Part shown: one piece after another, positions 48,648-60,903 of the stretch | Position numbering within the stretch: the stretch's first letter is position 1 | How the letters are laid out: every line of letters starts with the position of its first letter | DNA from: Anaerolineae bacterium | GTDB taxonomy: Bacteria > Chloroflexota > Anaerolineae > Aggregatilineales > Aggregatilineaceae | Direction of reading: 5' to 3' | DNA length: 64,000 nucleotides | NCBI GenBank assembly: GCA_018432315.1 | Contig: JAHDLB010000027.1 | Span: 1-64,000, forward strand | Position numbers and translations under genes: made by a program | Notes under the pieces: model-generated | Databases searched by the model: none | Told to the model about the DNA's origin: nothing | What the model saw: the letters and a program-made list of their open reading frames with translations, nothing else

Positions 48648-49703
48648 CTACTGCCCGGCCTCTGCCGGAGCCCCGCCCAGACTGCGCACGTAGTTGACGA
48701 TGTCCCAGGTGTCGCCGGGACTCAGATTCTCGGCAAGGCTGGGCATCCGGTTTTTGCCGTTGGTGATCACCAGGAAGATCGCGTCGTCGGACAGGGCGGC
48801 GGCCCGCTCACCATCGAGCGGGGGCGTTTCCGGGAAGTGCTTCAGCCCCACGACGCCCTCGCCGTTCCCGGCTGGTCCGTGGCACATCGCGCAGTTGATC
48901 GAGAACAGCGCGGCGCCGCGCTCGCGCGATTCGGGCGTATCGGGCAGGCGCTCGGTGGCGGGCTGCCCGGCGATGAGCACCGGCCCCTGGATGGGAACGG
49001 CGTCGGGCGGGGCAGCGCGGCGCGGCCCTTCCTGCGCCTTGACCACGACGGTATCCTTCATGGTGTTGATCCACGGCAGCCGGACCACGTCATAGGTCAG
49101 CAGCAGCGGGACCAACACCGCGACGAGTCCGGCGGCGCCCAGGCCGCCCCAGAACAGCAGGTGGCGCATTCCCTGGTCGGGGAACCCGGCGGCGTCTTCG
49201 CGCTTGACGACCGCGGCGTGGTGGTTCTCGAACACCTTGACGACCTGTTCCATCACCGCTTCGCTGGGGGCCAGCACCTGCACGCCGATGTACCCCTCGG
49301 TGATTCGCTCGTCGTACATCTGGCGCACCAGGATGGGGAAGCGATTTTGGAGCAGGAAGCCGACGAACGCGCCGAGCATGGTGAACAGCGCCATGAACTC
49401 GAAATACATGATTGCGCTTGGCGGGACGGGAGTCAGTCCCTGGCCGCCGACCTCGATCGGGTACAGCCTGGGCGTGATGTACGACATGAAAAACGCGATC
49501 AACACGCCGACCGCCATGCCGCCCAACGCGAACGGCAGGAACCACTGGCGCGGCGTCTTGCGGCCAAAGATCTTGGAGGCGTAGGGGATGTTCGACATGA
49601 TCTCCATTTCGGAGTCTTTGATCCCCAGGTCGCGCACCTCGCCGACGACGGTCGCCGTGGTCGTCACGTTGTCGAACAGGCCCAGGAGCATGAATTTGGT
49701 CAT
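48648..49703 (-). CDS. actD: Alternative complex III subunit ActD fused to a monoheme cytochrome c (ActE-like)
   Basis: The 351-residue protein has an ActD/DUF3341 domain (residues about 1-175). It begins KFMLLGLFDNVTTTATVVGEVR and has two membrane helices (about 58-78 and 100-120). A third helix (about 182-205) is followed by a cytochrome c domain with CAMCH near residue 270 and a Met in KNRMPSL. In other organisms ActD and the monoheme ActE are separate proteins. The fusion places the cytochrome on the periplasmic side. A strong AGGAGGAG site precedes the ATG, nine bases after actC. Confidence 0.9.
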   Translation of the reverse strand: MTKFMLLGLFDNVTTTATVVGEVRDLGIKDSEMEIMSNIPYASKIFGRKTPRQWFLPFALGGMAVGVLIAFFMSYITPRLYPIEVGGQGLTPVPPSAIMYFEFMALFTMLGAFVGFLLQNRFPILVRQMYDERITEGYIGVQVLAPSEAVMEQVVKVFENHHAAVVKREDAAGFPDQGMRHLLFWGGLGAAGLVAVLVPLLLTYDVVRLPWINTMKDTVVVKAQEGPRRAAPPDAVPIQGPVLIAGQPATERLPDTPESRERGAALFSINCAMCHGPAGNGEGVVGLKHFPETPPLDGERAAALSDDAIFLVITNGKNRMPSLAENLSPGDTWDIVNYVRSLGGAPAEAGQ

Positions 49704-49712
49704 TGTCTCCTC

Positions 49713-51170
49713 CTAGTGCGATTCGGTCCGGGTCGGCAGAATGGCCCGGCCAATGCGACGGGTGGCTTGCATGGCCTGCCCCTCGTAAACTTCCCACAGC
49801 GGGATGATCGGGACCACCCGCGTCGCCAGCAGGTACATCAGCGCCAGGAAGCCGAACGTTCCGATGGTGATCAGCACCTCGGGCAGGTGGGGCGTGTAGT
49901 TCACCCAGTTGAACGGCAGCTCGTTGCGCGACAGGAAACCGGAGACGATCACCACGCGCTCGATGTACATGCCGATCTGGATGAACACGCAGATCACGAA
50001 CATGGCCGGCAGCGACGTGCGGACGCGCCGCGACCAGAGCGTGCCCACCGGGACCACGATGTTGGCGAACAACATCAGGTAGAACAGCGGGGCCAGGTCG
50101 CCGGTCAGCATGCGCTGGATCGCCTTTTCCATCGGCAGGTTGCCGTACCAGTTGGTGATCCACTCGGCGAAGTAGAAGTAAATCCAGGTGAAGGACATAA
50201 TCAACAGGAACAAGCCCATCGCGTTGAAATGTTCTTCGCGCAGGAAGTAGCCGAAGCGCATCGTCTTGCGGATGACGATCATCACCAGGATCACCGCCGC
50301 CACGCCGGAGAACAGCGCGCCGGCCACGAAGAACGGGCCGAAGACCGTGCTGTGCCAGCCGGGCTGGATCGACATCGCCAGGTTCCACGAGACGCCGGTG
50401 TGTACCGAGAACATGACCGGGATGATCACGTAGCTGAGGATGTTGCTGGTGCTCTCCATCTTGTGCCACTCGCCCTCGGTGCCGCGCCAGCCAAGCGCCA
50501 GCGCGCGGTAGATCTTGCGCCGCCAGCCGGTCGAGTGATCACGCGCCATCGCCAGATCGGGCAGCAGCGCCAGGTACATGAACAGCGTGCTGCCGATGAT
50601 GTAGGTGGTGATGGCCGTCATATCCCAGAACAGCGCCGAGCGGAAGTTTGGCCACAGCTCGCGCTGGTTGGGGATGGGCATCATGTAGAACAGCTTCCAG
50701 ATGCGGCCCACGTGAATGATCGGGAACAACGCGGCGACCGCCAGGCCGAACAGCGTGATCAGCTCGGCGGCGCGGGCGATCGGGCGCTTGAAATCCATGC
50801 GCAGCAGGCGCAGCGCGGCGGAGATGAACGTCCCCGCGTGGCCGATGCCGATGAAGTAGATCAGGTTGGCGATGTACGGCCCCCACATCACCGAGCGGTT
50901 GAGGCCGGTGACGCCAATGCCGGAGAAGATCTGGACGATCCAGGTGGCGAGGAAGGCCAGCGTCAGCCCGCCCAGGCCCAACACGGCCATCCAGAACGCC
51001 TTCCCGGTCTTGTTCATCGACTCCAGGACGATGGCGTTGTTCTCTGCCGGTGGGAGCGGATCGAGGAGCAGATGTTCTTCGCGCCCGTGTTCGACTTGCT
51101 CTGCCAGGTGTTCGTCCTCAGGATCGTGCGGCTGCCAGAAGGGGCTGCTATCCGCTCTACTCTCCAACAT
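49713..51170 (-). CDS. actC: Alternative complex III membrane subunit ActC (NrfD/PsrC family)
   Basis: The 485-residue protein has about ten membrane helices in the NrfD/PsrC fold, after a ~50-residue cytoplasmic N-terminus rich in Glu and His. Typical segments are NRSVMWGPYIANLIYFIGIGHAGTFISAALRL and WNLAMSIQPGWHSTVFGPFF. NrfD-like subunits carry the quinol site and, in complex III, a proposed proton path. ATG 51170 overlaps the preceding iron-sulfur gene by 14 bases, suggesting translational coupling. A second NrfD-like subunit (ActF) expected in many complex III operons is absent. Confidence 0.92.
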   Translation of the reverse strand: MLESRADSSPFWQPHDPEDEHLAEQVEHGREEHLLLDPLPPAENNAIVLESMNKTGKAFWMAVLGLGGLTLAFLATWIVQIFSGIGVTGLNRSVMWGPYIANLIYFIGIGHAGTFISAALRLLRMDFKRPIARAAELITLFGLAVAALFPIIHVGRIWKLFYMMPIPNQRELWPNFRSALFWDMTAITTYIIGSTLFMYLALLPDLAMARDHSTGWRRKIYRALALGWRGTEGEWHKMESTSNILSYVIIPVMFSVHTGVSWNLAMSIQPGWHSTVFGPFFVAGALFSGVAAVILVMIVIRKTMRFGYFLREEHFNAMGLFLLIMSFTWIYFYFAEWITNWYGNLPMEKAIQRMLTGDLAPLFYLMLFANIVVPVGTLWSRRVRTSLPAMFVICVFIQIGMYIERVVIVSGFLSRNELPFNWVNYTPHLPEVLITIGTFGFLALMYLLATRVVPIIPLWEVYEGQAMQATRRIGRAILPTRTESH

Positions 51171-51876
51171 GAGTCTCTCCACCTTTCAGGTAATAAACCG
51201 CCGGTTCGGTGCCCATGTGTTCCAACAGCTTGAACTGGCGCTCGTTGGGGACCATCTGGGCGACGCGGCTGTTCTCGTCATATTTGTCGCCGAAGACCAG
51301 CGCGTCCGCCGGGCACGCCTGGACGCAGGCCGGCACCACTTCGCCATCTTCCAGCGGGCGGTTTTCGGCGTTGGCCGTTTCGCGCCCGCGCCGGATCCGC
51401 TGGATGCAGAAGGTGCACTTTTCCATCACGCCGGGGCTGCGCACGGTCACATCCGGGTTGAGCTGTTGTTCGAGCGGCTCGTCGAAATGCGGCGCGAAGT
51501 AGTTGAAGATGCGCACGCGATACGGGCAGTTGTTGCCGCAGTAGCGCGTGCCCACGCAGCGGTTGTAGACCTGGACGTTCAGGTTTTCCTGCTCGCTGTG
51601 ATACGACGCGTACACCGGGCAGACCGGCTCGCACGGGGCATTGCCGCACTGCTGGCAGAAAACCGGCAGGAAGCGCGCCTTGACGTTCGGATACTCGCCT
51701 TCCCAGTATCGCTCGATCCGGATCCACTGGTTCCCGCGCCCGCGCAGGATTTCGTCCTCGCTAGGCGTGGGGATGTTGTTTTCGGCGCTGCAGGCAACCA
51801 CACAGGCCTGGCAGCCCGTGCATTTATCGAGATCGACGATCATGGTCCATTTGTGTTCTGTGGTGTTGTCTGCCAT
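51157..51876 (-). CDS. actB: Alternative complex III iron-sulfur subunit (ActB C-terminal domain as a separate protein)
   Basis: The 239-residue ferredoxin-like protein contains four cysteine groups: CTGCQACVVAC, CQQCGNAPCEPVCP, CVGTRYCGNNCP and CTFC with CVQACP, enough for four [Fe-S] clusters as in NrfC/PsrB/DmsB proteins. In studied complex III systems this domain is the C-terminal half of ActB; here it is a separate gene directly after the molybdopterin-fold subunit. It would conduct electrons between the quinol site and hemes. ATG 51876 with an AGGAGCG site is used. Confidence 0.92.
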   Translation of the reverse strand: MADNTTEHKWTMIVDLDKCTGCQACVVACSAENNIPTPSEDEILRGRGNQWIRIERYWEGEYPNVKARFLPVFCQQCGNAPCEPVCPVYASYHSEQENLNVQVYNRCVGTRYCGNNCPYRVRIFNYFAPHFDEPLEQQLNPDVTVRSPGVMEKCTFCIQRIRRGRETANAENRPLEDGEVVPACVQACPADALVFGDKYDENSRVAQMVPNERQFKLLEHMGTEPAVYYLKGGETHVGE

Positions 51877-51892
51877 CAATATCGCTCCTGGT

Positions 51893-54097
51893 TTAGAACG
51901 GGATATGCACTTCTTCGTCTGTCTCGATGGTGCTTTCCAGCCGCGGCAGGGCGCGCTTGTCGTCCGTCTTGCGGATGTTCACGCGGACGTTCGACCATGC
52001 CAGATGGTTGCCGGAAGCGTCCGTCTCGAGGCCGACCAGGGCCAGCGGGTTCGCGCCGCGATCCTTCGCGTAGCGGCCCAGGTCGTGGTGGCCCTGGCCG
52101 ATCGGGATAGCGACCGTGTCGGGGCGAATGGCCGGGAAGACGTACACCGGCAGCGTGATCGCGCCCTGCGGCGAGGTGATCTCGACGATGTCGCCGTGCT
52201 CCAGATCCAGCTCTTTGGCGGTCGCCGGGTTGATCTCGACCCAGGTTTGCCACGAAACGGTGGTCATGGGATCGGGCGTGCTCTGCAGCCAGGGCTGGTT
52301 GGCGCCGCTGCCGTCCCCCAACAAGACCGACATGAACAGGTGCAGGTGATAGGGATACTCGCCCTCGTCGCCCTGGTACGTCGTCGGGGGAACGCTGGGG
52401 GCCGCCTCCGCGATGACGGCGGGTGTCTCAGCGGCGGCCTCGACCGGCCACCATCCGCCGTGCTGCAGGTACCGTGCCCAGCGCACTTCTTCGTCCTGGC
52501 CGCCGGCGGCCCCGGTGGGCAGGGCGGTGATCATCTCCTTGATGAACGCCACCTCGTCGGTCCAGGGCAGCGCCTGGGCGGCGGCGGGAATGCCGCGCGC
52601 CACCGTCAGCAGCACGTCGCCCGTGCTGCGCACGTCGTACAGCGGGCCGACGACCGGCTGTTGGCTGCTGATGACCGGCACGCCGCCGAAAGCCGGCGTC
52701 GCGACGCTGTAGCCCCAGCCTTCGAGGTACACGCGATCCGGCAGGATGTAGTCGGCATGGACCGAGGTTTCATCCACCAGCGGGTTGAACGACACGACGA
52801 GATCGACGTTCGCCAGCGCCTCGACGAAACCGGCGCCGGCGGGCAGGTCGAAGGCAGGATTCGCGCCGTGCACCAGCAGTACCTTGACGTCACCGGCGTT
52901 CATGCGCTCGATCAGCGCAGTCGCGTCGGCGAAGGTGGATGCAGGGGGCGCAGCGAGCGGCGCATCGGGCAGGGCCGGGGTGACGGACATGCCGCCCGGC
53001 TGGCCGACGGTGCCCGCGATCAGGTTCAGCGCCTGGATAGCCGCGATGGCCTCGGCGGCGTTGTTCGCGCCGGCGACCGCGCTGCCGGGAATGGCGAGCG
53101 GGTGATCGGCGGCGGCGAAGGCGCGCGCCAGCTCGACCAGCCCCTCGACCGGCATCTCGCACGCGGCAGCGGCTTCTTCGACGTCCACGTCTCCCGCCAG
53201 CGTGGCGGCGCGCTCGGCCCGTTCGGCGGAGCCCAACTGCTCGTCGGCGATGATCCGCGCGATGGCCTGCGCGACGAGCGCCTCAGTCCCCGGGCGCAGC
53301 GGCACCCAACGGTCCGCCTTGGCGCCGGTGATCGACATCTTCGGCTCGAACTGGACGAGATAGCCGCGCTGGCCGAACGGCTGGCTGCGGAATCGTCCGA
53401 ACTCCACGCCGTAGCCAGTGGACGAGAGCCACGTGCCCAGGAAGTCCGCGCCGAACGAGAACACCGTGTCGGCGTGGCCGAGGTCGTAGGTGGGCAGGCC
53501 CGCCCCGTCGAGCAGGGCGCCGGTCGCGGATTGCAGCGCGTTGTAGCCGTGGAAACCGGCGTACAGGTCATAGCGCACCGGGGCCGGGGCGCCGATGGCT
53601 TCGGTGAAACGGGTGAACAGGTCCACCAGGTGGCCGGAGGTCGTCGAGCCGAGCCACACGCCCACGCCACTCCCGGCAGCATCAATCTGCTCGTAGATCG
53701 TGTTGATCGCGTCGTTCCACGCGACGGAGTCGAACTTGCGGCTGCCGCGCTCGTCCTGGCGCACGGCGCCGGTCACGCGGTCGGGATTGTACAGAAGCTG
53801 CAGCCCGGCCTGCCCGCGCGCGCACAGCTTGCCGCGGTTGACCGGGTGTTCGGGGTTGCCCTCCAGCTTCACCGCGCGCCCGTTCATGATCCGCACGATG
53901 ACCCCACAGCCCGCCGGGCACTGGCGGCAGGTGGTGGCGTAATAATTCGGGACGCCCGCGAGCTGTTCTTCCGGCGCGCGCACATACGGCTCCAGCGTGA
54001 CCCAGCGCTCGGTTTCCTGCGAGCACCCGGCCAGGATCGCTGTGGCAGTGCCTGCCGCGCTGATCTTGAGAAAATTGCGACGCGTGATATTCGTCAT
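51893..54097 (-). CDS. actB: Alternative complex III molybdopterin-oxidoreductase-fold subunit (ActB N-terminal domain as a separate protein)
   Basis: The 734-residue protein has a Tat-like leader (TRRNFLKISAAG) ending in a lipobox-like LAGC. It then carries the molybdopterin oxidoreductase fold. Cys57, Cys60, Cys64 and Cys92 (CRQCPAGC and KLCARG) have the spacing of the [4Fe-4S] motif seen in true molybdopterin enzymes. Many ActB proteins lack this motif. The C-terminal dinucleotide-binding domain (about 610-720) includes DLEHGDIVEITSPQGAITLP. No molybdopterin ligand residue could be fixed by eye. It lies nine bases after actA and 16 bases before the Fe-S gene. Confidence 0.9.
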   Translation of the reverse strand: MTNITRRNFLKISAAGTATAILAGCSQETERWVTLEPYVRAPEEQLAGVPNYYATTCRQCPAGCGVIVRIMNGRAVKLEGNPEHPVNRGKLCARGQAGLQLLYNPDRVTGAVRQDERGSRKFDSVAWNDAINTIYEQIDAAGSGVGVWLGSTTSGHLVDLFTRFTEAIGAPAPVRYDLYAGFHGYNALQSATGALLDGAGLPTYDLGHADTVFSFGADFLGTWLSSTGYGVEFGRFRSQPFGQRGYLVQFEPKMSITGAKADRWVPLRPGTEALVAQAIARIIADEQLGSAERAERAATLAGDVDVEEAAAACEMPVEGLVELARAFAAADHPLAIPGSAVAGANNAAEAIAAIQALNLIAGTVGQPGGMSVTPALPDAPLAAPPASTFADATALIERMNAGDVKVLLVHGANPAFDLPAGAGFVEALANVDLVVSFNPLVDETSVHADYILPDRVYLEGWGYSVATPAFGGVPVISSQQPVVGPLYDVRSTGDVLLTVARGIPAAAQALPWTDEVAFIKEMITALPTGAAGGQDEEVRWARYLQHGGWWPVEAAAETPAVIAEAAPSVPPTTYQGDEGEYPYHLHLFMSVLLGDGSGANQPWLQSTPDPMTTVSWQTWVEINPATAKELDLEHGDIVEITSPQGAITLPVYVFPAIRPDTVAIPIGQGHHDLGRYAKDRGANPLALVGLETDASGNHLAWSNVRVNIRKTDDKRALPRLESTIETDEEVHIPF

Positions 54098-54106
54098 AGT
54101 CTTCTC

Positions 54107-54646
54107 CTAACGGTGGCAGACGACGCAGTCGTAGAGCGCATCTTTGTTTTCTTGTTCGGCATGGCAGTCGAGGCAAAAGCCCATGTTCATGTTGACGACG
54201 GGTTCGGCGACGGACATGTTGGCGACATCACCATGACACGATCCACAGCTCACGCCCGCAGCAACGTGCGAGTGGTGGTTGAAATAGACGAAATCCGGCT
54301 GCTCGTTGACGCGCACCCAGGGGATGGGCTCCTCGTCGGCCCAGTACTCGGCAATTTTCCTGACTTCAGGGTTGTCGGTCGCCACGAATTCGTGGCAGCC
54401 CATACACTTTTCCACACTGGGGATCACTGCCGAGGGAGATTGATTTACTCCGTAGTGACAGAACTGGCATTGGATGTCGTTCTGCGCGTGGATCTGGTGA
54501 TTGAACGCAATCGGCTGCTCTGAGGCGGCATCGGACCGCGAGCTGGCGATCAGTGCGATCACCACGATCAGCCCGATGACGAGCACACCGCCCGCTCCGC
54601 CAATCAGTAGCCGCTGCCGTGACGACAGACTAGGTAGTTTGTCCAT
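54107..54646 (-). CDS. actA: Alternative complex III pentaheme cytochrome subunit ActA
   Basis: The 179-residue protein has one N-terminal membrane helix (about 15-38) and five CxxCH heme motifs: CQFCH, CMGCH, CGSCH, CLDCH and CVVCH. Several extra His residues (FNHQIH, YFNHHSH) serve as likely distal ligands. Five hemes and one anchor is the known ActA composition. It is the first gene of the operon. ATG 54646 has a GGGAG site. The next gene follows after nine bases. No clear promoter was identified upstream on this strand. Confidence 0.93.
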   Translation of the reverse strand: MDKLPSLSSRQRLLIGGAGGVLVIGLIVVIALIASSRSDAASEQPIAFNHQIHAQNDIQCQFCHYGVNQSPSAVIPSVEKCMGCHEFVATDNPEVRKIAEYWADEEPIPWVRVNEQPDFVYFNHHSHVAAGVSCGSCHGDVANMSVAEPVVNMNMGFCLDCHAEQENKDALYDCVVCHR

Positions 54647-54971
54647 CTGGACTCCCTTCTGTAACAAGCGACCACGTCAGGTGGTCTTCAATGAAACCAG
54701 GTTGTTTGCCCGACAGATCCCCTCGGTCGACATGAGGACATATGTGGCCGGTGATGTGGGTCACCGATTTTGACAGAGCTGGCAGAAGCACTGCGACCTA
54801 TACAGTTACAGTTAATTGGTCGCTGTCTTCATAACCGCGGTAAGTATAAAATGGCGCGTCCTCCACGACAACAGCGGATCATGCTAGTATTCTGCAACGT
54901 ATTAACTGTTTTTGCAACCACTTCGAACGATCGGTAGTGGTGAACAATTGACTGATAGCGGCTGCTCAACT

Positions 54972-55159: not shown

Positions 55160-55195
55160 CACGCCGGAAGCGACCTCGAAACCAGGAGAGACTGT

Positions 55196-56461
55196 ATGCG
55201 AATCATCGTGCATGGCGGGCGCCCGCTTCAGGGGACGTTTCGCCCGTCGGGCAACAGCAACGCGGCCCTCGCCCTCACCGCGGCGGCGCTGCTGACTGAT
55301 GCTGAGGTGACGCTCAACGGCGTGCCGGATACGCTGAGCACGGCGATGATGTTCGAAGCTGCCGAGATCCTGGGCGCAGCCGTGGCGCGGGATGGCGGCA
55401 CGGTCCGGCTCCATACCCCGGCGCTGCACACCCGCTCGCTCGAACAGGATTTCACTGAAACGCAGGTGAGCACGGTCATGTTCCTGGCGCCGATCCTGGC
55501 CCGGCGGCGCTACGCCCGGATGGAGATCGCGTATCCGGTGAGCCGGCTGCACACGCACCTGGCCGCCTTGCGCGACCTGGGCGTGACCGTGTCCATGACC
55601 GGCGGCGTGCTCGATTTTCAGGCGGCGGAGTGGGACCGGCGCGACATCACCCTGCTGCAGACCAGCGTCACGGCGACGTCGCTGGTGTGCATGCTGGCCG
55701 CGCGCCTGGGCCGCGAAACTGTGATCCGGAACGCCGCCTCCGAGCCGCACGTCCAGGATTTGCAGCGGATGCTGGCCGGCATGGGCGCGCAGATCGACGG
55801 GATCGGCTCGAACGTCGTGCACATTCGCGGCACGGAGTCGCTGGGCGGCGGCGCGTTCGACCTGTCGCCGGATCACGTCGAGATCGCGAGCGTGGCGGCG
55901 ATTGGCGCGATCACGCACGGCTCGCTGACCGTCGAGGGCGTCGTGCCCGAACACCTGCACGTAATCACGCGCGTGCTGGCGCGGCTGGGCGTGCAGCTTT
56001 ACCTGAACGGCACGGCGCTGTTTCTGCCCGCGCATGACCGGCTCGAAGTCTCGCAGCGTGAGGAAGACCTGGACGTGTCGATCGAAACGGCGCCCTGGCC
56101 GGGCTTCCCCTCGGACCTGGTCGCGATCGCGACTCTGGTCGCCACCCAGGCCCACGGCACCACGCTCGTCCACGAGAAGTTGTTCAACAACCGCCTGCTG
56201 TTCGTCGACAAGCTGACCAGCATGGGCGCGCAGATCGTGCTGTGCGATCCGCACCGCGCCCTGGTCGTGGGGCCGTCGCGCCTGCGCGGCGATTACCTCG
56301 ATACGCCGGACGTCCGGACCGGGCTGGCGCTGCTAGGCGCGGCGTTGTGCTCGCAGGACAGCGTCACCATCGACAGCGCGGAGTTGATCGATCGCACGTT
56401 CGAGAACGTGGTGAGCAAGGTGGTCGGGCTGGGCGCCCAGATCGAGGTGGTGCGATCATGA
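55196..56461 (+). CDS. murA: MurA/EPSP-synthase-family protein with altered active site
   Basis: The 421-residue protein has the six-fold inside-out barrel family pattern of UDP-N-acetylglucosamine 1-carboxyvinyltransferase from end to end (SGNSNAALALTAAALL at the start; FPSDLVAIATLVATQ; VHEKLFNNRLLFVDKL; DVRTGLALLGAAL). Several catalytic positions differ by manual alignment to E. coli MurA. The Lys22 equivalent is Ser21, the Arg91 position is Val91, and the GGC loop with Cys115 is missing (residues 108-120 read RMEIAYPVSRLHT). The Asp305 and Arg397 equivalents remain. It may be a divergent MurA or a paralogue with another role. ATG 55196 follows an AGGAGAG site. The next gene overlaps by four bases. 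Confidence 0.85.
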   Translation: MRIIVHGGRPLQGTFRPSGNSNAALALTAAALLTDAEVTLNGVPDTLSTAMMFEAAEILGAAVARDGGTVRLHTPALHTRSLEQDFTETQVSTVMFLAPILARRRYARMEIAYPVSRLHTHLAALRDLGVTVSMTGGVLDFQAAEWDRRDITLLQTSVTATSLVCMLAARLGRETVIRNAASEPHVQDLQRMLAGMGAQIDGIGSNVVHIRGTESLGGGAFDLSPDHVEIASVAAIGAITHGSLTVEGVVPEHLHVITRVLARLGVQLYLNGTALFLPAHDRLEVSQREEDLDVSIETAPWPGFPSDLVAIATLVATQAHGTTLVHEKLFNNRLLFVDKLTSMGAQIVLCDPHRALVVGPSRLRGDYLDTPDVRTGLALLGAALCSQDSVTIDSAELIDRTFENVVSKVVGLGAQIEVVRS

Positions 56462-57243
56462 GCATCGCACCCGTCAGGCTGGACGAGGTCGCCGGGATGA
56501 CAACCGGCGTTTGTGTGGTTGGGGAAGGGCGACCCGTCCTGGCGCTGCACGGCTGGGGCGGCAGCATCCAGAGCTTCTGGCCGGTCGCCGAGCGGCTGGC
56601 GCCCAAAGGCTACCAGGTTCACCTGCTCGATCTGCCCGGTTTCGGCCAGTCCGAGCTGCCGCCGGCGACGTGGGGCGTGGGCGATTACGCGGGTTTCGTG
56701 CTGGCCTACCTGGACGCGGCGCAGCTTGGCCGGGCGGCCCTGATCGGGCACTCGTTCGGCGGGCGCATCAGCCTGATGCTGGCGGCGGACCACTCCGCGC
56801 GGTTTTCGCGCATGGTGCTGGCTGCCGGAGCCGGGCTCCGCACCCCGCCCAACCTCAAGCAGGTGATGCGCAGCGGGTTCTCGCGCACGGTGCGCAAAGG
56901 GCTGAGCGCGCTGCACATGAACGGGCTGCGCGACCGGCTGCGCGAGAGCTATAACCAGCGCTACGCCTCGGAGGATTTCCTGAACGCGGGGCCGCTGCGC
57001 GATACGTTCATCCGCGTGATCGAGGAGGACCTGACAGCCTATGCCGAGCGCGTCCCGCTGCCGACCCTGCTGATCTGGGGCGACCAGGACCAGGAAACGC
57101 CGCTGTGGCAGGGCCGCCGCTTCGAGCAGATCATGCCCGACGCGGGGCTGGTTGTGTTCGCCGGGGCGGGGCACTTCGCCTACCTGGAACGGCTGAACGA
57201 AACCATCCACATCGTGGATCACTTTTTGGGTGGTGGGGAGTGA
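56458..57243 (+). CDS. Alpha/beta hydrolase
   Basis: The 261-residue protein has the alpha/beta-hydrolase fold: oxyanion HGWGGS near residue 34, nucleophile Ser in GHSFGGR (near 98), acid Asp in LLIWGDQDQETP and His in GAGHFAYLE. A small lid region of about 60 residues (140-200) precedes the last strands. It resembles haloperoxidase/esterase-like members, and the substrate is unknown. The start ATGA overlaps the MurA-like stop, so the two are translationally coupled. That coupling argues for a function in the same cell-envelope pathway. Confidence 0.9.
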   Translation: MSIAPVRLDEVAGMTTGVCVVGEGRPVLALHGWGGSIQSFWPVAERLAPKGYQVHLLDLPGFGQSELPPATWGVGDYAGFVLAYLDAAQLGRAALIGHSFGGRISLMLAADHSARFSRMVLAAGAGLRTPPNLKQVMRSGFSRTVRKGLSALHMNGLRDRLRESYNQRYASEDFLNAGPLRDTFIRVIEEDLTAYAERVPLPTLLIWGDQDQETPLWQGRRFEQIMPDAGLVVFAGAGHFAYLERLNETIHIVDHFLGGGE

Positions 57244-57250
57244 TCGCCTG

Positions 57251-58882
57251 ATGGTACAGATTCTGATCTTGATCTGGCTGGCGGGCATCTTGCTGCGAAT
57301 CTGGCGGCTGGCTCGCTTCTTTCAGCTCGAAGGGTACGACAGCCACCGTTTTTTGCGCTGGGTCGTCGCCAGGCCGCAGCGTTACATCATGTGGCGGGCG
57401 CTGGTGTTCGCCGGGGTGGCGGCGCTGATCTCGCTGGCGCTGAACTGGGTCGGGCAGGACACCGAGATGATCTACCTGCTGGTGTGGGGCACGGCGGCGG
57501 TGTTGGGCGTGTGGCCGGAACCGTTCAAAGAGGTCAAGCAGAAGTTCAAGGTCACGCAGCGCGCCGCCCGGCTGTTGATCACGGCGTTTGCCCTGGGCGT
57601 GATCGCGCTGGTCGGCGCCGAGATCACGCTGAACGTCGCGTTTGGCCTGGCCGACCGGACGCGGTTCGTGGTCAGCACCGTGATCGGGTTGGTGGTATTC
57701 CACCTGGCGCCGCTCGCCTTGCCGCTGGCGAACGCGCTCAACTACCCAATCGAGGCTGGGTTCCGGCGCATGTTCCGCGAGCGGGCCCGCCGCCGGCTCC
57801 GGAGGGCCGGGCCAACCGTGATCGGGATCACGGGCAGCTATGGCAAGACCAGCACGAAGGAATATCTGGCGCACATCCTGCGGGGGCGCTACCGGGTGTT
57901 GGCGACGCCCAAGAGCTACAACACGCTGATGGGCGTGTGCATCGTGATCAACGAAGAGCTGGAGCTCGACGAGCCGGTCGACTATTTCATCGTGGAGATG
58001 GGCGCGTACGTCGAAGGCGAGATCCGCGAGATCTGCGAGCTGACCCGCCCGCAGATCAGTATGGTGACGGCGGTCGGGCCGCAGCACCTGGAGCGGTTCG
58101 GCAGCCTCGAAAATACCGCGAAGGCCAAGTACGAGATCATCGAGGCGCTGCCGCCGGATGGCGTGGGCGTCTTCAACTGGGACGATGCCTACGTGCGGGC
58201 GATGTACGAGCGCGGCTATCCGGAGGTCCGCATCGCGGTGACGTGGCAGAACGCCGAGCACGCGACGCAGCTTCGCTTCATCGCCACCGACGTCCAGGAA
58301 ACGCTCGACGGCATCGAGTTCACCCTGGTCGACACGCTGCTGACCGAGGAAAAGCGGTTCACGTCGCGGCTCATTGGCCGCCACAACGTGACCAATATCC
58401 TGATGGCGGTGGCCGTGGCCCGGCACCTGGGCATGTCGCTGAACGAGATCGCGCTCCGTGTGGCGACGCTCGAACCGGCGGAACACCGGCTCCAGCGCAA
58501 GACGCTGCCCGGCGGCATCACCGTGATCGACGATGCGTACAGCGCCAACCCGGTGGGCGCCAAGACCGCGCTCGACGTGCTGGCGCTGCACCGGGACGGG
58601 CGGCGGGTGCTGATCACGCCCGGCATCGTGGAGCTGGGGCCGCTCCAGGAGCAGGAAAACGCCCGCCTGGGGCACTACGCGGCGCAGGTGTGCACGGATA
58701 TCGTGCTGGTGGGCATCGAGCAGACGCAGCCCATCCAGCGCGGCATTCACGAGGCCGGGTTCGACGGCGAGCGCCTCCACGTGTTCAACACGCGCGACGA
58801 GGCGATCGCCTGGTTTCGGTCCGCCCTCCAGGAGGGCGACACGGTGTTATTCTTGAATGATCTGCCCGATACGTACGTGTAA
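57251..58882 (+). CDS. Membrane-embedded Mur ligase (MurF-like) lacking the UDP-sugar domain
   Basis: The 543-residue protein begins with about 170 residues containing four or five membrane helices (around 3-17, 46-62, 72-88, 110-130, 136-160). The Mur ligase central domain follows: P-loop GSYGKTSTKEYLAHIL near 195, TPKSYNTLMG, EMGAYVEGEI, GPQHLERFGSLENTAKAKYEI and GRHNVTNILMA. The C-terminal domain (about 410-543) contains DDAYSANP. MurF normally carries a soluble N-terminal domain that binds UDP-MurNAc-peptide; here membrane helices stand in its place. A lipid-linked or other membrane substrate is therefore plausible. ddl follows after 36 bases. Confidence 0.88.
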   Translation: MVQILILIWLAGILLRIWRLARFFQLEGYDSHRFLRWVVARPQRYIMWRALVFAGVAALISLALNWVGQDTEMIYLLVWGTAAVLGVWPEPFKEVKQKFKVTQRAARLLITAFALGVIALVGAEITLNVAFGLADRTRFVVSTVIGLVVFHLAPLALPLANALNYPIEAGFRRMFRERARRRLRRAGPTVIGITGSYGKTSTKEYLAHILRGRYRVLATPKSYNTLMGVCIVINEELELDEPVDYFIVEMGAYVEGEIREICELTRPQISMVTAVGPQHLERFGSLENTAKAKYEIIEALPPDGVGVFNWDDAYVRAMYERGYPEVRIAVTWQNAEHATQLRFIATDVQETLDGIEFTLVDTLLTEEKRFTSRLIGRHNVTNILMAVAVARHLGMSLNEIALRVATLEPAEHRLQRKTLPGGITVIDDAYSANPVGAKTALDVLALHRDGRRVLITPGIVELGPLQEQENARLGHYAAQVCTDIVLVGIEQTQPIQRGIHEAGFDGERLHVFNTRDEAIAWFRSALQEGDTVLFLNDLPDTYV

Positions 58883-58918: not shown

Positions 58919-60112
58919 ATGAGCAGCATATCCAAGAAACACACGGTCGGTGTCGTTTTTGGCAGTCGTTCGGTCGAGCACGACGTCTCGATCGTGACCG
59001 CCCAGCAGGTGATGCAGGCGATGCGCCCTGACAGATACGAGGTCGTGCCGATCTACATTACCCGCGACGGGCACTGGATCACCGGGCCGGGCCTGCGCGA
59101 GTTGAAGCACTTCCAGGCGGACAACATCGGCGAGCTGATCGGCATGAAAGAGACGCTGATCTCGCCGGACCCCCGGCACCACGGCCTGATCCTCGCGCCG
59201 GTGAGCGGCCTGCTGGCGCGCAGCCAGGTCAAGCGCCTGGACGTGGTCTTCCCCGCGCTGCACGGCTCGCACGGCGAAGACGGCACGCTGCAGGGCCTGC
59301 TCGAACTGGCCGATATTCCGTACGTCGGGGCGGGCGTGATGGCCTCGGCGATCGTGCGCGACAAGATCATGCTCAAGGCGCTGTTGTCGGGCCACGGCAT
59401 CCCCGTCGTCGAGCACGTTGGCTTCACCCGTCACGCGTGGGTGAGCGACCCGGATGCGGTGCTGTCGCGGATTGAATCCGAGGTGGGCTATCCCGTTTTC
59501 GTCAAGCCCGCGTCGCTCGGGTCGAGCATCGGCGTGGCGCGCGCCAATGATGCGGCGGAAGCCCGCAACTACATCGACATCGCGGCCAACTTCGACCGCC
59601 GGATCATCGTCGAGAAAGCCGTGCAGGACGCCATCGAGATCAACTGCGCGCTGCTGGGGAACGAAGACGTGCGCGCGTCCGTGCTCGAACAGCCGATCAC
59701 CTGGCAGGAATTCCTGACCTACGAGGAAAAGTACATGCGCGGCGAGGGGCCGGCGGGCATGAAGGGCGCCGAGCGCAAGATCCCCGCGCCGATCTCGGAC
59801 GAGCTGACGCAGCGCATCCAGCAGATGGCGATCGACGCCTTCAAGCTGGTCGATGGCCGGGGCACGGCGCGCGTCGATTTTCTGGTCCGCGAGGCGGCGG
59901 GCGAGGTTTACCTGAACGAGATCAACACGCTGCCCGGCTCGCTGGCCTTCTACCTGTGGCAGGAATCGGGCATGTCGCCGCAGCAGGTGGTGGACGAGCT
60001 GATCCGGCTGGCCCTCGACGCGCACGCCGAGAAGCGCAAGACGGTCTACAACTACAAGACCGGCCTGCTGGCGCACGCAGCGGCGCGCGGCTTGAAAGGG
60101 CTCAAGAAGTAG
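58919..60112 (+). CDS. ddl: D-alanine--D-alanine ligase
   Basis: The 397-residue ATP-grasp enzyme makes the D-Ala-D-Ala dipeptide that MurF-type ligases use. The start has VGVVFGSRSVEHDVSI. PALHGSHGEDGTLQGLLEL lies near 118, the ATP-grasp region VFVKPASLGSSIGVARA near 200, and the metal/phosphate site FLVREAAGEVYLNEINTLPGS near 330-350. The motif reads NTLPGSLAFYLW, as in a large group of family members outside the DdlB type. D-Ala versus D-lactate or D-Ser specificity is not certain. It links the adjacent membrane Mur ligase to peptide-stem synthesis. Confidence 0.95.
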   Translation: MSSISKKHTVGVVFGSRSVEHDVSIVTAQQVMQAMRPDRYEVVPIYITRDGHWITGPGLRELKHFQADNIGELIGMKETLISPDPRHHGLILAPVSGLLARSQVKRLDVVFPALHGSHGEDGTLQGLLELADIPYVGAGVMASAIVRDKIMLKALLSGHGIPVVEHVGFTRHAWVSDPDAVLSRIESEVGYPVFVKPASLGSSIGVARANDAAEARNYIDIAANFDRRIIVEKAVQDAIEINCALLGNEDVRASVLEQPITWQEFLTYEEKYMRGEGPAGMKGAERKIPAPISDELTQRIQQMAIDAFKLVDGRGTARVDFLVREAAGEVYLNEINTLPGSLAFYLWQESGMSPQQVVDELIRLALDAHAEKRKTVYNYKTGLLAHAAARGLKGLKK

Positions 60113-60903
60113 TGATCCAGGCGCGCGGGCTGGGCCGCCTGAAAGCGGCGCTCCATCCGTGGGTCGACCCGGCGCTCAGCCTGCCCGATCGCTGGCGGGC
60201 GGCGCGGGCGCTGCGTGGGCTGCCCGCTGGCACGTACCGCGCCCCCGTCCGCGTGTCGTATTATGCGCAGTTCGCCAGCCCGGATCGCATCTACGACTAC
60301 ATTCACCGCGCGTACGACGGGACGCGTGACCCGCGCTGGCGGGAGTTCGGCGCAACCGAGCCGGGCGAATATGCCTTCTGGGCGCCGCGCGTGTGCGCGC
60401 TGGCCTGCCTCAAGATGGCCGTCGAGGCATTCTATCCCCAGCGCCAGCCGACGCTGTGGCAGTTGGTCAAGGAAGGGCTGGCCGTGGGCGGGTACCGGCT
60501 GCGCGACGAGCGCGGGCGGTGGATCGACGAGGGCTGGACCGTCCACGCCCAGATTCGCCTCGCGGCGCGGTACGGCCTGCGCACCGAGGGCCGGGCTTAC
60601 GTCTCGCCGCTGACGATCTGCCGCTACATCCTCGATGGCTGGCTGGTAGCCGCGACCGTCACGCCCGAGATCGGTGAGCGCCAGCCCGACCACCGCGGCT
60701 ATGATGGGCATCTGGTGCTGGTCTACGGCTTCGACTGGGAAGACGGTCGCCCCGCCCGCTACGTCCTGCACAACCCGTCGGGCCGCTTCCCGGAGCTTCA
60801 GGCGGGCGCGATCCTGCCAGCGGAGCAGTTTCACACCAGCTTCGCCCGCCGGCTGCTGGCGTTTCGCCCCGCGGACGGGTCGCCCACGTCCACCGGATCG
60901 TGA
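60112..60903 (+). CDS. C39-like cysteine peptidase family protein
   Basis: The 263-residue protein has a papain-like C39_2 pattern. The Cys region is EYAFWAPRVCALACLKMAVEAF near residues 82-103, with Cys at about 91 and 95. The His region is GYDGHLVLVYGFDWED near 200, and the Asn/Asp region YVLHNPSGRF comes about 20 residues later. Such domains cleave peptides or peptidoglycan stem bonds. No signal peptide is visible, so export is unclear. The GTG start at 60112 overlaps the ddl stop by one base. It closes the five-gene cluster, whose genes overlap or nearly abut. Confidence 0.8.
   Translation: MIQARGLGRLKAALHPWVDPALSLPDRWRAARALRGLPAGTYRAPVRVSYYAQFASPDRIYDYIHRAYDGTRDPRWREFGATEPGEYAFWAPRVCALACLKMAVEAFYPQRQPTLWQLVKEGLAVGGYRLRDERGRWIDEGWTVHAQIRLAARYGLRTEGRAYVSPLTICRYILDGWLVAATVTPEIGERQPDHRGYDGHLVLVYGFDWEDGRPARYVLHNPSGRFPELQAGAILPAEQFHTSFARRLLAFRPADGSPTSTGS

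Follow-up and report, generated by a model that had tools for sequence, protein, structure and literature searches.

Introduction

MurF is a near-universal and essential enzyme, described in textbooks as a cytosolic ligase by which the cell wall building block receives its final two amino acids. As in other Mur ligases, its domain I holds the substrate by the UDP moiety, which a lipid-linked substrate does not have. What is then the role of a MurF-type ligase that carries membrane helices instead of domain I, and on which acceptor does it act? This question is raised by a gene at positions 57251–58882 (forward strand) of contig JAHDLB010000027.1 (assembly GCA_018432315.1) from an Anaerolineae bacterium (Chloroflexota), of which the first 64,000 nucleotides, referred to below as the window, were analysed. 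The gene encodes a membrane-embedded MurF-type ligase of 543 amino acids (TM-MurF), delineated on the basis of its open reading frame (ORF), Pfam and NCBIfam matches, an alignment of relatives, and a structural model. From sequence-based evidence, we favour the reading that TM-MurF is a MurF with a lipid-linked MurNAc-tripeptide as acceptor, and assign to this statement as a whole a probability of roughly 0.55.

Domain Architecture of TM-MurF

The ORF extends from an ATG at 57251 to a stop codon ending at 58882; an in-frame GTG is present at 57230, but the alignment of relatives begins at 57251. Pfam detects only two domains, the Mur ligase middle domain (Mur_ligase_M, residues 193–390, 9e-38; 57827–58420) and the C-terminal domain (Mur_ligase_C, residues 412–534, 4.5e-14; 58484–58852), while PF01225, corresponding to domain I, is absent from the scan of the whole protein. 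The place of domain I is occupied by a five-helix membrane domain (residues 1–186; 57251–57808), and no Pfam or TIGR match covers the residues before 175. The best NCBIfam match is the murF model TIGR01143, which aligns over model positions 61–403 with 234 bits, below its curated cut-off of 288.6. An earlier note on this DNA had described an intact middle and C-terminal Mur ligase domain preceded by four or five membrane helices in about 170 residues. Both ligase domains are indeed recognised, with a complete active site, and the replacement of domain I agrees with the missing PF01225 and with a TIGR01143 match that sets in at position 61; solely the size of the membrane domain needs correction, to five helices and about 186 residues.

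Among solved structures, the nearest ones by sequence are MurF enzymes (4cvk, 3e-39; 1gg4, 2.4e-37), aligning from about residue 171–178 on. An AlphaFold model of the full protein, based on a 31-member alignment, has a mean predicted local distance difference test score (pLDDT) of 88.8 and a predicted template modelling score (pTM) of 0.84; for the membrane domain alone, the values are 93.0 and 0.86. The ligase part of the model matches MurF (4qf5, Foldseek E 3.2e-27; 3zl8, VIA-align Z 38.8, root-mean-square deviation (rmsd) 4.6, 373 residues aligned). A concealed canonical domain I, considered in the earlier note, is found neither in the full-length model nor by VIA-align.

The middle domain contains the P-loop GSYGKT together with E249, H279 and K293. 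In the C-terminal domain, the MurF-type D-Ala-D-Ala motif DDxYNA(N/S)P is present as DDAYSANP (residues 427–434; 58529–58552). The canonical C-terminal KGS(R) motif is absent and NDLPD stands there throughout the TM-MurF clade, with NDLPDTY at residues 536–542 (58856–58876) in the window's protein. In 41 aligned proteins, the invariant positions of the ligase part include G198-K199-T200 of the P-loop, E249, H279, R413, D428, N433, P434 and D537-L538-P539-D540. TM-MurF, hence, shares with MurF (TIGR01143; 4qf5, 4cvk, 1gg4, 3zl8) the middle and C-terminal domains, the P-loop, the metal and carbamate-lysine positions, the DDxYNxNP motif and the best fold match, but differs in the five helices replacing domain I, in NDLPD for KGS, in forming a separate clade, and in its score. 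Because domain I is missing, the curated cut-off is not reached and the C-terminal motif is its own, we keep TM-MurF apart from plain MurF.

Taken alone, the score below the murF cut-off might point to a degenerate or mis-assembled gene devoid of function. We regard this as next to inconceivable, as the ORF is open, conserved and complete in its active site in two phyla, also in type strains whose genomes are closed. An origin of TM-MurF by chance or as an artefact of the reading frame was likewise rejected, since the same full-length architecture is seen in the 41 aligned proteins from two phyla, where it is kept down to about 33–35% identity, with 39 invariant positions.

Distribution Across Genomes

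The distribution was assessed in two phyla, represented by 301 Chloroflexota genomes, most of which are draft assemblies, and 148 genomes of the Bacteroidota-type phylum. TM-MurF is present in the genome of the window and in 28 other Chloroflexota genomes, spread across twelve family-level groups. Canonical MurF scores over the cut-off in 236 of the 301 Chloroflexota genomes, while 33, including those of the small-genome group f19, are devoid of any match. In the Bacteroidota-type phylum, 33 of 148 genomes carry TM-MurF, among them Rhodothermus marinus DSM 4252 (G317) and Salinibacter ruber DSM 13855 (G456). A species-genome scan retrieved metagenome-assembled genomes (MAGs) of Anaerolineae/Chloroflexi with 72–73% identity as well as three MAGs named Bacteroidetes with about 35%; the Bacteroidota-type phylum sampled here is that of one of these three. 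Judged by alignment, TM-MurF is a coherent family that spans two phyla or more and has two cultured type strains among its carriers. None of 67 pattern matches on viral contigs is a relative, and the sole matches on plasmids are without the membrane part.

Probable Replacement of Canonical MurF

The genome of the window is 99.4% complete and encodes five Mur_ligase_M proteins, i.e., MurC, MurD, MurE, a FolC-like protein and TM-MurF, the first four being named by position, motifs and neighbours. A family search for a canonical murF elsewhere in this genome, a check proposed in the earlier note, returned none, leaving TM-MurF as the sole MurF. The same holds for most carriers in the phylum: a full-length canonical MurF is lacking in 20 of the 29 Chloroflexota genomes with TM-MurF and present in nine.

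In the Bacteroidota-type phylum, the two forms are mutually exclusive. Canonical MurF over the cut-off occurs in 113 of the 148 genomes and TM-MurF in the 33 mentioned above, with no genome containing both and two (G387, G432) containing neither. The probability of this pattern arising by chance is about 6e-31 if the genomes were independent, which they are not; the exclusivity is, therefore, read as a clade-wide replacement. In division and cell wall (dcw) clusters, murF is usually located between murE and mraY. In those of R. marinus, G378, G382 and G401, which follow the order murE-mraY-murD-..-murC, it is missing from this place.

The coexisting canonical copies of Chloroflexota were evaluated for decay by scoring two positions, the metal-binding H279 and K293, the site of the carbamoylated lysine, where glutamate was also accepted. 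Both are retained in 46 of 47 canonical MurFs from genomes without TM-MurF, but in genomes containing TM-MurF in 2 of 14 copies, namely the fusions of G067 and G304. As the copies are partly related, the p-value of 6.5e-10 should not be read literally. The canonical copy of G193 is split across two contigs and was scored on its C-terminal piece; L174, a full-length match in G307, is MurE by its motifs and was excluded; and the R413 column of the canonical set was left unused, as it depends on the alignment. Loss of the P-loop glycine was dropped as a sign of decay, since the sole MurFs of f32 also have GxxAK.

Most of the canonical copies remaining beside TM-MurF in Chloroflexota are MurF-alanine racemase (MurF-Alr) fusions of about 850–890 residues; another remaining copy belongs to the dcw cluster of G067, is decayed and groups in the tree with the intact copies L113 and L114 of the same family-level group. 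Catalytic residues have been lost from the MurF half of the fusions L080–L085, L171, L177 and L178, and these halves are likely pseudo-MurF domains on an alanine racemase. MurF-Alr fusions resemble TM-MurF in being based on a MurF unit, in occurring in Chloroflexota and Bacteroidota, and sometimes in sharing a genome with it; they differ in being soluble, in possessing domain I, and in being mostly decayed catalytically where TM-MurF is present.

A tree built on the shared domains resolves TM-MurF as one clade (SH-aLRT 99), the sister group of canonical MurF together with its Alr fusions; the Bacteroidota proteins are a single clade nested inside TM-MurF. Of the phylogeny suggested in the earlier note, the comparison with MurF is, with that, available and yields a separate clade, in trees that were quick ones.

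Because of the exclusivity with the canonical form, the dcw clusters devoid of murF and the decayed coexisting copies, TM-MurF is very probably the working MurF of these organisms. It would also, with high likelihood, add D-Ala-D-Ala, supplied by the adjacent D-alanine–D-alanine ligase Ddl (58919–60112, forward strand), to a MurNAc-tripeptide precursor on the cytosolic side of the membrane. For this donor, which had been proposed in the earlier note and now appears very likely, speak the DDxYNxNP motif, the neighbouring Ddl and the status as sole MurF of the genome.

Membrane Domain and the Nature of the Acceptor

Hydrophobic helices of TM-MurF span residues 2–26, 48–67, 72–87, 103–130 and 135–163, the last one extending to 186. 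According to hydropathy, positively charged loops in the protein and its family lie at 20–47, 90–107 and from 163 on. The predicted topology follows the positive-inside rule and puts the N-terminus on the outer side, with the ligase domains facing the cytosol. A search with the membrane domain alone revealed no known fold: the best Foldseek match has an E-value of 1.9, and the best VIA-align match a Z of 5.0 (rmsd 5.3, 109 aligned), which is below chance level for helical bundles and does not in itself prove a new fold.

The conserved polar residues of this region lie mainly on the predicted cytosolic side. Q25, Y29, T102, P166 and A179 are invariant in the 41 aligned proteins, and R104, R107 and E168 are kept in 39 of them. 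Out of 14 polar residues of the membrane domain with at least 70% conservation, 12 map to predicted cytosolic stretches and none to the outside; R107 sits at the edge of the membrane and W9 in the first helix.

On these grounds, the acceptor would be lipid I or lipid II carrying the tripeptide, and MraY, perhaps also MurG, would act ahead of the last ligase. The membrane domain would bind the undecaprenyl-pyrophosphate end through the cytosol-facing residues Q25, Y29, K96, T102, R104, R107 and E168, doing for the lipid end what domain I does for UDP. As to the sequence of events, we give even odds to a route in which MraY transfers the tripeptide precursor and the pentapeptide is then finished on lipid I or lipid II by TM-MurF, whose membrane domain would recognise the lipid-pyrophosphate end.

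A lipid-linked acceptor is favoured because of the conserved residues at the cytosolic face and the precedent of MurT. The latter is part of MurT/GatD, the lipid II isoglutaminyl synthase, and its Mur ligase core likewise lacks domain I; its substrate is lipid II. The authors of the Staphylococcus aureus MurT/GatD structure argue that such a substrate has no UDP for domain I to bind, and that a domain of this kind would probably collide with the membrane (PMC6113224). MurT differs from TM-MurF in having a short flexible N-terminus, a Cys4 zinc ribbon and GatD as a partner, and in lacking membrane helices. Assignment of TM-MurF to MurT was rejected, with 19–20 bits on the MurT models NF045635 and NF052464 versus a cut-off of 800. 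No GatD was seen among the identified neighbours of TM-MurF, a genome-wide search not having been made.

The main competing explanation is that TM-MurF is merely tethered and still uses UDP-MurNAc-tripeptide, its membrane domain docking at MraY or MurG in order to channel the pentapeptide precursor. This would preserve the usual order of the pathway and is in line with a MurF core that is intact and close to soluble MurF, as well as with a mraY gene that adjoins the TM-MurF gene in G245 and G280 and lies within about 10 kb of it in f17. On the other hand, no remaining domain would be able to hold UDP in the usual way, and the polar residues Q25, Y29 and T102, invariant at the cytosolic face in two phyla, would be needless for a mere tether. 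We, thus, consider such tethering possible, but the less probable of the two.

Several points, however, weigh against the lipid-linked acceptor. In statistical terms, the excess of conservation towards the cytosol is modest, with 13 of 188 circular shifts giving an equally large value. The usual substrate of MraY is the pentapeptide, and MraY, matched in 29 of 29 Chloroflexota genomes with TM-MurF and over the cut-off in 23, is ordinary by score in most of them. Furthermore, the position of the carbamoylated lysine is L, I or M in 7 of 31 TM-MurFs (L026, L027, L028, L030, L032, L033 and L034, from f17, f47 and f34), and four of the genomes concerned (G051, G004, G124 and G219) are without any other MurF; with this lysine missing, the chemistry of these enzymes is not fully explained. 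Glutamate occupies the position in the TM-MurFs of f48 and in the soluble MurFs of f47.

Gene Neighbourhood

Close relatives of the window's locus have in common the order MurA–hydrolase–TM-MurF–Ddl. In the window, the MurA-type UDP-GlcNAc enolpyruvyl transferase is encoded at 55193–56461 (forward strand; the ORF is open from 55043, with homology from about residue 53), followed by an alpha/beta hydrolase at 56452–57243 (forward strand), the immediate upstream partner of TM-MurF, which is conserved in relatives. Of 33 loci with sufficient flanking sequence, 30 have the hydrolase directly upstream, those of the three Bacteroidetes MAGs among them, and Ddl is nearby in 25 loci. The exceptions for the hydrolase all belong to f37: two of its contigs break off within the gene, and the third genome (G086:C36; L019 / L058) has a single ORF of 841 residues in which the C-terminus of TM-MurF continues into the hydrolase, 40% identical to that of the window. 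R. marinus and S. ruber, too, have the hydrolase near TM-MurF, whereas G378 does not.

A further explanation is that TM-MurF is a Mur-type ligase for another amino acid or another envelope polymer, or acts in editing together with the hydrolase. The role of the hydrolase is indeed unexplained, NDLPD replaces the canonical KGS, and a MurF-like copy is also kept in nine of the 29 Chloroflexota genomes. Nevertheless, we judge a function of this kind improbable in view of the coexisting copies being mostly decayed, the exclusivity with canonical MurF in 148 genomes, Ddl as a neighbour, and closed genomes whose murE-mraY-murD-murC clusters are otherwise ordinary but which offer no MurF candidate besides TM-MurF.

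The poly-gamma-glutamate ligases PgsB/CapB also combine a Mur ligase core with a membrane part, but belong to another substrate system. They are not among the 25 of 26 NCBIfam matches listed for TM-MurF, and no capsule genes were recognised beside it.

Additional observations concern the wider surroundings. MraY-family matches in G081, G193, G237, G177 and G190 reach only 62–128 bits, far under the mraY cut-off; MraY may be divergent in these genomes or absent from the assembly. Right after Ddl, the window encodes a C39-like peptidase-type protein (60013–60903, forward strand; PF13529, below cut-off), which is also next to Ddl in L043, L046 and L047. On the reverse strand, genes at 48648–54667 resemble an alternative complex III set, comprising a multihaem cytochrome with several CxxCH motifs (54107–54667), a molybdopterin-type/iron-sulfur pair (51157–54097) and an NrfD-like membrane protein (49713–51182).

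Significance

Annotation by the MurF cut-off misses TM-MurF, and organisms relying on it, therefore, appear to be devoid of MurF. Searches of open-access literature returned no description of a membrane MurF, of murF in Chloroflexota, or of murF in Rhodothermus or Salinibacter. The question of the acceptor is directly testable in R. marinus and S. ruber. For R. marinus, genetic modification of a strain is reported (PMC5822342).

In TM-MurF, a MurF has turned into a membrane protein, with the nucleotide-holding domain lost and the soluble form apparently displaced. Should its acceptor be lipid-linked, the pathway would run in another order than in the textbook, and the division between cytosolic Mur ligases and later steps at the membrane would not be universal; the membrane domain would then be an undescribed membrane fold recognising a lipid-linked precursor. 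If the acceptor is not lipid-linked, TM-MurF would still represent a new architecture for an antibiotic target.
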